Positions 1-16,309 of a stretch of DNA of 64,000 nucleotides are shown piece after piece. The stretch is taken from NCBI RefSeq assembly GCF_017654605.1, contig NZ_CP072113.1, positions 2,480,001 through 2,544,000 of the forward strand, read 5' to 3'. The notes under the pieces are model-generated. The model was not told the origin of the DNA, ran no database searches, and saw nothing but the letters and a program-made list of their open reading frames with translations. This DNA comes from Yimella sp. cx-51 (GTDB lineage Bacteria; Actinomycetota; Actinomycetes; Actinomycetales; Dermatophilaceae). The first letter of the stretch is position 1. The number at the start of each line of letters is the position of its first letter. Position numbers and translations under genes: made by a program.

Positions 1-123
1 CGGCACGGGGCCAACCACCGTTGCGCCGGCACGCGTCACCGTGTCGACAATCTTGCGCGCCGAGCTGTCGATGACCTCGTGGTCATACGACTTAAGCCGG
101 ATGCGGATCTTTTGTCCCGCCAT
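1..123 (-). CDS. rpsJ: 30S ribosomal protein S10, N-terminal part
   Basis: The first 41 codons of S10 are visible, starting at an ATG and reading [20 protein letters not shown], the standard S10 N-terminus. S10 is a head protein of the 30S subunit and a partner of NusB/NusG in antitermination. The gene runs off the left edge, so it is partial. It is normally the first gene of the S10 operon (rplC, rplD and others follow in Actinobacteria), which fits the roughly 390-bp gene-free leader upstream. No strong Shine-Dalgarno is seen; a purine-rich GAGAGAGAG tract lies upstream of the start. Confidence 0.97.
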
Positions 124-198: not shown

Positions 199-222
199 CG
201 ACCCCCGCGGTCGGGTGTGTCG
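199..222 (-). promoter_or_regulatory. conserved 24-bp leader element shared with rpsL
   Basis: This 24-bp block matches positions 16058-16081 upstream of rpsL in 22 of 24 bases, including the exact 14-mer ggtcgggtgtgtcg (plus strand). Its gene-proximal edge is 76 nt upstream of the rpsJ start; the rpsL copy is 85 nt upstream. On the minus strand it contains a short dyad (CGACC...GGTCG). The function is not known; a common regulatory or leader role for the two ribosomal operons is inferred. Confidence 0.5.
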
Positions 223-489
223 CACCTGCTTCGCAGCACAGTGCGCACCTTTTCACCAGTGGCGGGGTGGGGCCGGTCCGTACGGGCCGGGGCTCGCGCG
301 TGCCGTTCACGTCCGACTCGGCCCGGAATTCCGGTCCTTTTCGCCTTGACGTGGCCGACGGTGGTGCCGCACTTCGTCCGGAGAACCGGCCGAACAGATG
401 CGCCATCACGCGACGAGCAACTTGTCTAGTGTGCCACGCACGGCGGATCACGACAAATCCGCTGGAGGTGTGCTGTCTCACGGCTCATT
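223..489. other. gene-free S10-operon upstream region
   Basis: There is no convincing coding signal between the leader element and the palindrome at 492. The short ORFs on both strands lack the GC-rich third-position pattern of neighbouring genes. It probably holds the distal promoter region of the S10 operon, but I see no clear -10/-35 pair here. Confidence 0.5.
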
Positions 490-11609: not shown

Positions 11610-12806
<1,197 letters not shown>

Positions 12807-12874
12807 TGCGGGTCCTCCTGTTGGACTTGGTTGCTGACGCCGGGGCGGCGTCGGTGATTACTTGATTCTGTTGG

Positions 12875-12903
12875 AAACTAGCGGGTCAACCGATCAGGGA
12901 CAA
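12875..12903 (-). promoter_or_regulatory. candidate internal tuf promoter
   Basis: On the minus strand TTGTCC (12903-12898) and TAGTTT (12880-12875) are spaced by 17 nt in the fusA-tuf gap, about 70 nt upstream of the tuf start. An extra tuf promoter would fit the need for excess EF-Tu over other str-operon products. The -35 lies in a small dyad (tcagggacaaatccctga). Confidence 0.45.
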
Positions 12904-12912
12904 ATCCCTGAA

Positions 12913-15027
12913 TCACTCGCCCCGGACCTTCTTGATGATCTCTTCCGCGACGTTCCGGGGAACCTCGGCGTACGAGTCGAACTGCATCGTGTAGTTGGCA
13001 CGACCCTGCGTCTTGGAACGAAGGTCACCGACGTACCCGAACATTTCGGACAACGGGACGACGGCCCGAACGACCTTCGCACCGCTGACGTCCTCCATGG
13101 CCTGGATCTGGCCACGGCGGCTGTTGAGGTCGCCGATGACGTCGCCCATGTACTCCTCGGGCGTACGCACCTCGACGGCCATCATCGGCTCGAGCAGGCA
13201 GGGGTCCGCCTTGCGGGCGGCTTCCTTGAATGCCATCGAACCGGCGATCTTGAACGCCATCTCCGAGGAGTCGACGTCGTGGTAGGCGCCGTCGACCAGG
13301 GTGGCCTTGACACCCACAACCGGGTAGCCGGCGAGGATGCCGAGCTGCATGGCGTCCTGGATGCCGTGGTCGACCGACGGGATGTACTCGCGCGGCACGC
13401 GACCACCGGTGACAGCGTTGTCGAACTCGTAGAGCTCGCCCTCGGCGGTGTCCAGGGGTGCGAGCGAGATCTGCACCTTCGCGAACTGACCCGAACCACC
13501 GGTCTGCTTCTTGTGGGTGTAGTCGAACTTCTCGACCGTGCGACGGATGGTCTCGCGGTAGGCAACCTGCGGCGCACCGACATTGGCCTCGACCTTGAAC
13601 TCACGCTTCATGCGGTCGACCAGGATGTCGAGGTGGAGTTCGCCCATACCGCCGATGACGGTCTGGCCGGTCTCCTCGTCGAGGTGCACCGAGAAGGTCG
13701 GGTCTTCCTGCGCCAGCCGCTGGATGGCCGTGCCGAGCTTCTCCTGGTCACCCTTGGTCTTGGGCTCGATGGCCACGTGGATGACCGGCTCGGGGAAGGT
13801 CATCGACTCCAGAACGATCTGCTCGTTCGGGTCGGACAGGGTGTCACCGGTGGTGGTGTCCTTCAGGCCGATCGCGGCGTAGATGTGACCTGCCAGTGCC
13901 TCGTCAACAGGGTTTTCCTTGTTGGCGTGCATCTGGAAGAGCTTGCCGACGCGCTCCTTCTTGCCCTTGGTGGTGTTGACCACCTGCGAGCCTGCCGCGA
14001 TGCGACCGGAGTAGACGCGGATGAAGGTGAGCGAACCGAAGAACGGGTGCGCGGCAACCTTGAACGCCAGGGCCGAGAACGGAGCGTCCTTGGACGGCTC
14101 ACGGGTGATCTCGGTCTCCTCGTCGCCCGGCTTGTGGCCGACCATCGCGTCGACGTCGAGCGGGCTGGGCAGGTAGTCGACGACAGCGTCGAGCATCGGC
14201 TGCACACCGCGGTTCTTGAACGCCGAACCACACAGGATCGGGTAGACCGTGGAGCTGACCGTCAGCTTGCGGATGCCGGCCTTGAGTTCCTCGATCGAGA
14301 TCTCCTCGCCACCGAGGTACTTCTCCATGAGCTCGTCGTCGGACTCGGCGACGCGCTCAACCAGCTTCTCGCGGTACTCCTCGGCCTTGGCCTGGAGGTC
14401 GGCGGGGATCTCCTGCACCTCGTACTTGGCGCCCATGGTGACGTCACCCTTGGCGTCGCCCGGCCACACCAGTGCGCGCATCTGGACGAGGTCGACAACG
14501 CCGACGAAGTCAGCTTCGGCACCGATCGGCAGCTGGAGCACGAGCGGCTCAGCGCCGAGGCGGTCGATGACCGTCTGCACGGTGAAGTAGAAGTCGGCAC
14601 CCATCTTGTCCATCTTGTTGACGAAGCAGACGCGCGGAACGTCGTACTTGTCAGCCTGACGCCAGACGGTTTCGGACTGGGGCTCGACGCCCTCCTTGCC
14701 GTCGAACACCGCGACGGCTCCATCGAGCACGCGCAGCGAACGCTCCACCTCGACGGTGAAGTCGACGTGACCGGGGGTGTCGATGACGTTGATCTGCGTG
14801 CCGTTCCAGAAGGAGGTCACAGCAGCGGAGGTGATCGTGATGCCACGCTCCTTCTCCTGCTCCATCCAGTCGGTGGTCGACGCACCGTCGTGCGTCTCGC
14901 CGATCTTGTGGTTGACGCCGGTGTAGAACAGGATCCGCTCGGTCGTCGTGGTCTTACCGGCGTCGATGTGCGCCATGATGCCGATGTTGCGGACCTTCTT
15001 CAGGTCGGTCAGCACGTCCTGTGCCAC
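12913..15027 (-). CDS. fusA: translation elongation factor G
   Basis: 704 aa, full length, GTG start ([20 protein letters not shown]). Ribosomal translocase GTPase with AHIDAGKTT (P-loop), DTPGHVDF (G3) and NKMDKMG (G4), followed by domains II-V. Third gene of the str operon, 101 nt after rpsG; the gap contains a long hairpin. Confidence 0.98.
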
Positions 15028-15082
15028 GGTGTCTGCCTCGTTCTCTGGGGGCTGTGGTTTGAAAGTTCAGGTGCGGGTGGAC

Positions 15083-15126
15083 GCTCCCGGCGCGCGGAGC
15101 GGATAGCTGTCCGCGCACCGGGGAGC
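15083..15126 (-). promoter_or_regulatory. long intergenic stem-loop between rpsG and fusA
   Basis: An almost perfect 16-bp stem (gctcccggcgcgcgga and complement, one bulge) in the transcribed rpsG-fusA gap. There is no U-tract after it, so it is not a typical terminator. It could be a processing site or a translational control element (inference). Confidence 0.55.
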
Positions 15127-15128
15127 AA

Positions 15129-15599
15129 TCACCAGCGGTAGTGAGCGAACGCGCGGTTCGACTCGGCCATCTTGTGGGTGTCCTCGCGGCGCTTGACCGC
15201 TGCACCCAGGCCGTTCGAGGCGTCCAGGATCTCGTTCATGAGGCGCTCCGTCATCGACTTCTCGCGACGCTGACGGCTGTAGCCGACCAGCCAACGCATC
15301 GAGAGCGTGGTGGCGCGGCCCGGCTTGACCTCGACCGGCACCTGGTAGGTGGCGCCACCGACACGGCGGGACTTCACCTCAAGGCTCGGCTTGATGTTGT
15401 CGAGGGCACGCTTCAACGTGACCACGGGGTCGGTGCCGGTCTTCTCACGGCAGCCTTCGAGAGCGCCGTAGACGATGCGCTCGGCGATGGACTTCTTGCC
15501 GTCGAGCAGGATCTTGTTGACCAGCTGGGTGACGATCGGCGAGCCGTAGACCGGGTCGACGACGAGCGGGCGCTTCGGAGCAGGGCCCTTACGAGGCAT
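15129..15599 (-). CDS. rpsG: 30S ribosomal protein S7
   Basis: 156 aa, standard length, starting [20 protein letters not shown]. It nucleates assembly of the 30S head on 16S rRNA, and in E. coli autoregulates the str operon. It overlaps the rpsL stop by one nucleotide (TAATG), implying translational coupling. Confidence 0.98.
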
Positions 15600-15973
15600 T
15601 ACTTCTTCTCCTTCTTCGCGCCGTAACGGGAACGGGCCTGGTTACGACCCTTGACGCCCTGGGTGTCCAATGCGCCGCGAACGATCTTGTAGCGAACGCC
15701 GGGGAGGTCCTTCACACGGCCGCCACGCACGAGCACGATTGAGTGCTCCTGCAGGTTGTGACCCACACCCGGGATGTACGCGGTGACCTCGATGCCGGAG
15801 GTCAGCTTCACACGAGCGACCTTGCGCAGCGCCGAGTTCGGCTTCTTGGGGGTGGTGGTGTAGACGCGAGTGCACACACCGCGTCGCTGGGGGCTGCCCT
15901 TGAGCGCCGGCGTCGAGACCTTGGTGGTCTTGTCCTGCCGACCCTTGCGGACGAGCTGGTTGATAGTAGGCAA
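15599..15973 (-). CDS. rpsL: 30S ribosomal protein S12
   Basis: 124 aa. The family N-terminus [11 protein letters not shown] requires a TTG start at 15973, which has GGAG 6 nt upstream; ATG starts further upstream add unrelated sequence. S12 sits at the decoding centre. The streptomycin-determinant region reads [12 protein letters not shown] and [10 protein letters not shown] with the usual lysine in TPKKP, so no classical streptomycin-resistance substitution is seen. First gene of the str operon. Confidence 0.96.
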
Positions 15974-16309
15974 CCTGTTCTCCGTACTGGTTGGTTTATT
16001 GTCTGCGCGACGCACGCCGGAACGCGGTCGAACTCCTTGGATTCCGACTCGGCCAAGCGACCCACGGGGTCGGGTGTGTCGAATCGGTGCCCTCCCCCGC
16101 ACTTCCGCGGCGAACCGATCCTTTCGGACCCGACCGACCGGCGACTGCCCGGCGAGAGCGTGTGACGGGCCTGATGAACCCCGGCCCACCGTTTCCGGCG
16201 AACCCGAGGGCAGGGCATAGCCCACGCACGATCGTCAAGACTACCGGCCCTGCCGGGTGTCGACCAAATCAAATCCCTGCACGTTCCGCATCAACCGCAG
16301 CAGCCCAGG
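15974..16309 (-). promoter_or_regulatory. str-operon upstream region
   Basis: 336 bp without a credible gene. It contains the 24-bp element shared with the rpsJ leader at 16058-16081, 85 nt upstream of the rpsL start. A convincing -10/-35 pair is not obvious. A short dyad at 16301-16318 (cagccc/gggctg) spans the stop codon of the amylosucrase gene. Confidence 0.55.
16058..16081 (-). promoter_or_regulatory. conserved 24-bp leader element, rpsL copy
   Basis: 22 of 24 bases match the block at 199-222 upstream of rpsJ, in the same orientation relative to the gene. On the minus strand it can fold as CGACCC-loop-GGGTCG. The conserved part reads cgacacacccgacc. Confidence 0.5.

Follow-up and report, generated by a model that had tools for sequence, protein, structure and literature searches.

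Why should two different ribosomal operons of one actinomycete carry nearly the same 24 bp ahead of their first genes? The question arises from a stretch of 64,000 nt of the Yimella sp. cx-51 genome (the window), for which an earlier note, made from the letters alone, had proposed that the S10 and str operons share a control site. The features concerned are the following.

1-123, minus strand: rpsJ (S10), first codons; the gene continues beyond the window edge
199-222, minus strand: 24-bp bipartite element before rpsJ (S10 operon), a presumed WhiA operator; 44.6 bits with covariance model R1 (described below) at 198-223
214-221, minus strand: core of the rpsJ copy, GACACACC, in agreement with the published WhiA core GAYACRCY (PMC11701221)
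199-207, minus strand: second half of the rpsJ copy, CGGGGGTCG, which repeats the first half imperfectly in inverted form; a presumed auxiliary motif
11610-15599, minus strand: rest of the str operon (rpsG 15129-15599, fusA 12913-15027, tuf 11610-12806)
15599-15973, minus strand: rpsL (S12), TTG start, first gene of the str operon
16058-16081, minus strand: 24-bp element before rpsL (str operon); 32.9 bits with R1 at 16057-16082
16073-16080, minus strand: core of the rpsL copy by sequence, GACACACC
16058-16066, minus strand: second half of the rpsL copy by sequence, CGTGGGTCG

Two copies of one element

Read on the minus strand, the rpsJ copy (222-199) is CGACACACCCGACCGCGGGGGTCG and the rpsL copy (16081-16058) is CGACACACCCGACCCCGTGGGTCG. 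On recounting, the two agree at 22 of 24 bases and share their orientation, both being on the minus strand, just as had been claimed. The distances to the start codons, given earlier as 76 and 85 nt, were measured as 75 nt to the rpsJ ATG (123-121) and 84 nt to the rpsL TTG (15973-15971), a matter of counting convention only. The start codons themselves differ, rpsL opening with TTG (window 15973) and rpsJ with ATG. Family leaders also have a small hairpin, CUGC-GAA-GCAG or CCGC-GGA-GCGG, immediately before the rpsJ element (minus strand, window about 224-238).

GC-rich leaders might resemble each other by chance or composition, and near matches of the short motif are indeed many: a 14-mer allowed up to three mismatches matched 30 times in the 64,000-nt window against 20.4 expected, so that only exact 14-mer matches are meaningful. 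Across the organism's own genome (3.2 Mb) the 14-mer occurs exactly at two places and with one mismatch at five more (reversed control, 3), while the 24-nt degenerate pattern with up to three mismatches occurs at six places, two with none and four with three (control, 0). The short motif is not rare alone; the full 24-bp element is unique in its own genome to the rpsJ and rpsL leaders. The unrelated genomic copies that, according to the earlier note, would speak against a control site are thus absent in full form from this genome, where the next best places have three mismatches. When two 300-nt leaders were shuffled (first-order shuffles, n = 1000), the best ungapped 24-nt match between them was 15-19, the maximum of 19 comparing with 22 observed. 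Together with these controls, the class-wide conservation described next refutes chance likeness, to which we assign a negligible probability.

Conservation and the layout of the transcription units

Among close relatives, from the own genome to the same order, the element is kept at 26 of 27 rpsJ loci and 19 of 28 rpsL loci, the rpsL copy being unrecognisable in nine of 28. A relative was counted as a carrier if at least 19 of 26 positions matched the consensus GCGACACGCCCGACCGCGGGGGTCGG within the 500 nt that precede the matched domain. This search of related leaders, which the earlier note had recommended, therefore did not reveal the absence from the same leaders in close relatives that it had named as evidence to the contrary. 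Covariance model R1 (26 nt) was built from 44 rpsJ and rpsL rows of relatives; it left out one of 27 rpsJ rows and ten of 28 rpsL rows (nine below 19/26, plus that of genome G015, at -443 with a divergent core).

R1 matched 137 of the 148 class genomes (121 of the 127 good ones), mostly once or twice per genome; the other 11 have no match, though most of these encode WhiA. In a sample of the phylum, 17 of 198 genomes matched, 16 of them class members and the other a weak match at an unrelated place. The latter (31.5 bits, genome G150, outside the class) has no ribosomal protein gene downstream and was taken as chance. The element is essentially absent from the phylum outside the class. Nine genomes with three or four R1 matches were rescanned for third host targets; the extra matches were weak (30.3 bits at most), and the twelve examined score 15-21 of 26.

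The exact degenerate pattern occurs in at least 119 stretches of named genomes; among the matches listed, 101 stand before rpsJ, 17 before rpsL and one at a contig end, and all 80 with printed titles are Actinomycetes by name. Sought by the first half alone, elements appeared in 52 of 88 rpsJ contexts and 54 of 64 rpsL contexts (reverse complement, 5 and 1; shuffles, 5 and 2). A guide-RNA table for Mycobacterium tuberculosis rpsL prints a target ending in GCGACACACCCGG (PMC12915838), and the element core probably lies near that gene too. Conservation across the class at both leaders supports the proposed common control of the two operons.

How the copies are shared out was examined in 40 str-S10 regions, which were selected to represent both states, with and without the rpsJ copy, and which by this selection all have the rpsL copy. 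The gap between tuf and rpsJ is 85-326 nt in the 20 regions without the rpsJ copy versus 183-915 nt in the 20 with it (Mann-Whitney p ~2e-6, with kinship ignored, the 40 genomes being related). Because the gaps are larger where the rpsJ copy is present, we infer that there is one site per promoter and that the site is copied when the str-S10 cluster splits.

Two promoter-like stretches precede the copies in the window, both kept in relatives.

428-459, minus strand: rpsJ promoter-like stretch GATTTG ... CACACT; element about 205 nt downstream
16238-16267, minus strand: rpsL promoter-like stretch TTGGTC-18-TAGTCT; element about 156 nt downstream

Their -10-like boxes are at 16243-16238 (rpsL) and 433-428 (rpsJ). 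Among element-bearing rpsL leaders, 33 of 59 have a strict TTGACN-15-18-TANNNT promoter whose -10 box ends 54-174 nt before GACAC (reverse strand, 0/59; shuffles, 0.2 expected), and the same strict pattern was found within 260 nt in none of 64 rpsJ leaders. In the rpsJ leaders another conserved promoter-like stretch is seen, GATTnnG ... CAnACT ... GTTGC, strict in 9 of 64 (reverse strand, 0/64), and alignments show looser forms, in one case only about 20 nt before the element. The distance from promoter to element is accordingly variable (54-174 nt for rpsL and about 20-254 nt for rpsJ), and that from element to start codon also varies among genomes. Since conserved promoter-like stretches stand upstream at varying distance, the element is presumably downstream of the transcription starts, at a distance that is not fixed. 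After the rpsL -10 box (window 16213-16229, minus strand), many class leaders have at the start a sequence like GUGCCUGGG...CCCAGGC; the arms of this 5'-end hairpin differ between families and seemingly stay complementary.

DNA site or RNA element

The earlier note had left three options for the control site: a protein-binding site, part of a promoter or an RNA leader. With promoter-like stretches lying upstream of the element, it does not appear to be a promoter part. The RNA-leader reading was the one first pursued, through folds, the covariance model, Rfam, rRNA mimicry and an alternative stem. According to it, a ribosomal protein or another factor recognises a hairpin in the transcript, CGAC-A-C-R-CCCG-ANNN-CGKGGGTCG, and both mRNAs are controlled in this way. 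The element presumably lies within the transcribed leader, the rpsL -10 box ending 54-174 nt before it in 33 of 59 leaders, which agrees with this, as does the presence of one copy per transcription unit. Furthermore, 90.9% of cells pair, a level reached by six of 500 shuffles; this is mild support for pairing, and a DNA inverted repeat gives the same.

The pattern of changes points the other way. The first strand, GACACNCCCGA, is nearly invariant across elements and the second half, CGKGGGTCG, is less so, though conserved 3' of the core in class elements (n = 106). Changes in the second half are uncompensated: A3-T22 becomes A-C in 9 of 106 and G2-C23 becomes G-G in 9 of 106, the first strand being invariant there, and 21 of 106 elements have a C-U mismatch in the inner stem. 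The inverted repeat is imperfect, with six of nine symmetric positions in 80 of 106 elements. Compensatory stem changes, such as a ribosomal-protein RNA leader would be expected to have, were looked for in the elements and in an alternative stem, and hardly any were seen. The leaders and elements of the window fold no better than shuffled sequence, no Rfam family matches the element, and no rRNA look-alike exceeded 7.5 bits in the stretch of the own rRNA operon searched (15/26 at best in an ungapped search). The variable distance to the start codon is a further point against an RNA leader.

Additional evidence came from viruses. An IMG/VR scan with the exact 24-nt pattern gave 17 stretches on 16 contigs (L358-L374), none of them before rpsJ or rpsL. 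The stretches are AT-rich (35-41% GC), and the named relatives of one neighbouring viral protein (379 records) are chiefly phages of Mycobacterium (270) and Streptomyces (101). We count the contigs as probable actinophage; the hosts of the 16 contigs are a caveat on the WhiA reading developed below. The core CGACACGCC occurs in the viral stretches in 50 distinct contexts, compared with a mean of 0.13 and a maximum of 4 for permutations of its letters. TTGAY starts exactly 10 nt after the core in eight contexts and exactly 2 nt after the reversed core in ten, with 0.18 expected per distance in either case. Seventeen distinct cases also have a -10 box, the spacer being 17 in 16 of them and 18 in one. 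Fixed spacing to a -35 box in two orientations is the behaviour of a DNA-bound regulator; moreover, the viral cores are just upstream of promoters and thus outside the downstream transcript.

It is on the uncompensated stem changes and this fixed spacing that the RNA-leader reading was dropped, and we consider it unlikely. The element fits best as a DNA site rather than a conserved RNA stem; thus the protein-binding option is favoured, although the element does lie in the presumed transcribed leader.

Several other observations concern the viral copies. A CRP-like GTG...CAC palindrome is near many of them (39 occurrences, duplicates included). No tRNA or Rfam RNA overlaps them. A tblastn search with a 221-aa WhiA fragment against 261,107 bases of viral loci (fragments) gave nothing meaningful as to a phage-encoded WhiA (best E 7.1). 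Blastn with one viral flank gave no match to named phages, and the L363 flank gave two weak matches. With the window element itself, blastn returned 28 records, all but the best being short matches at E 1-5. That best record, a 4-kb unannotated 'Bacteriophage sp.' scaffold (MT839730.1, 3833-3860), matches the window element at 27 of 28 positions. The att repeat of phage Samy, TCGGGTGTGTCG, equals the core region in reverse (PMC12924846, PMC11302927); the literal motif turned up mostly in unrelated papers, and we regard the likeness as a coincidence.

WhiA as the presumed regulator

Which protein would bind such a site? We consider it very probable, judging from the sequence and published motifs, that the element serves WhiA, an old bacterial regulator of transcription, as a bipartite DNA operator, present once per unit (str from rpsL, S10 from rpsJ). 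Its GACACRCC core fits the GAYACRCY core published for the rpsJ operon in several phyla, Actinobacteria included (Fisunov et al. 2024, PMC11701221). The same study reports extra clade-specific motifs downstream of that core. In Streptomyces venezuelae the WhiA motif is GACAC (Bush et al. 2013, PMC3781837); the pentamer and a GAYACRCY-type core are present in both window copies. Among the 106 class elements recovered with the first half as the only query, GACACRCC is present in 101 and GACAC in 105. WhiA binding at rpsJ has been published for S. venezuelae (PMC3781837) and Mycoplasma gallisepticum (PMC11701221) only. In the former, rpsJ is a listed ChIP target with a peak 75 bp before the start, which coincides with the centre of the element, 72-77 bp before the rpsJ start in 7/7 Streptomyces-like leaders, and this favours WhiA.

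The protein itself is at hand. The organism has whiA (HTH_WhiA, G000:C1:1477221-1477469), whose product has all three Pfam WhiA domains and matches the solved WhiA chains 8dy7 and 8dy9, and HTH_WhiA was found in all but eight of the 148 class genomes (140, and 126 of the 127 good ones).

We count several points against this assignment. The bare pentamer GACAC abounds, with some 15,000 occurrences in S. venezuelae of which about 250 are bound (PMC6282962); the R position is T in 4 of 106 elements; rpsL is not among the targets in the main S. venezuelae table (PMC3781837); the Mycoplasma site is at the promoter versus downstream of it here; and there are the nine of 28 relatives with no recognisable rpsL copy and the 11 of 148 genomes with no R1 match. 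Some other DNA-binding protein might share GACAC with WhiA by chance. The conservation of 24 bp, far past GACAC, would suit such a protein, and an imperfect inverted repeat would suit a dimer, whereas WhiA is described as a monomer when bound (PMC3781837). Against it stand the publication of GAYACRCY plus a clade-specific motif for WhiA at the rpsJ operon (PMC11701221) and the coincident ChIP peak (PMC3781837), and we regard another protein as improbable, slightly more so than an RNA leader.

With WhiA as the regulator, the invariant core GACACRCC would be the target of its helix-turn-helix domain, and the second half, CGKGGGTCG, would be contacted by its homing-endonuclease-like domain. Seated shortly downstream of the promoter, WhiA would gate both operons jointly by growth or energy state; a location 20-254 bp into the transcribed region would be well placed for gating promoter escape or early elongation. 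Most likely, WhiA at the element raises or lowers transcription of str and S10 together. The sign differs in print, repression being reported for M. gallisepticum, where WhiA binds the rpsJ site and ATP releases the second contact (PMC11701221), and apparent activation for S. venezuelae, where translation and ribosomal protein targets are lower in the whiA mutant (PMC3781837). For Yimella we infer that WhiA binds at all and that it binds at rpsL, and likewise what the second half does, in which direction control works and that there is a response to ATP.

A wider proposal, which we put forward tentatively and rate slightly below even, is that one WhiA operator serves across Actinomycetes, is copied at str-S10 splits and gates much of the translation machinery, and that actinophages took over the same operator. 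If so, phage transcription would follow the host's ribosome-building signal, or phage sites would drain WhiA from the host; the phage copies suggest a site worth hijacking. Control of ribosomal protein synthesis in Actinobacteria is described as little known (PMC8470358). As WhiA is reported to sense ATP in mycoplasmas and the site is conserved at both operons, a single WhiA-type site at the two large operons would couple the supply of ribosomes to the energy state of the cell in Streptomyces, mycobacteria and their relatives.

Compared with known systems, the rpsJ site is of an already known kind and the rpsL site looks new. The main text of PMC11701221 has no mention of rpsL, rpsG, fusA, tuf or phage, and the literature searched, supplements being outside its scope, yielded no str-operon site, 24-bp bipartite form at two loci or phage sites, so that an earlier description is possible. 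The M. gallisepticum site shares the GAYACRCY core before the S10 operon and has a second motif downstream of it; that motif is GTTGT or -35-like, in a site lying within the promoter. In the present element the corresponding half reads CGKGGGTCG and is found downstream of the promoter, and the site reported at rpsJ has here a counterpart before rpsL (PMC11701221). The S. venezuelae regulon shares GACAC and the rpsJ target with its peak at 75 bp, but there the pentamer alone is over-represented, while here 24 bp are conserved at only two loci per genome (PMC3781837). Finally, Escherichia coli controls these two operons through the L4 site of the S10 leader and the S7 site of str; each operon there has its own RNA site, unlike that of the other, in contrast to the near-identical, DNA-like site at both operons here (PMC10931766).
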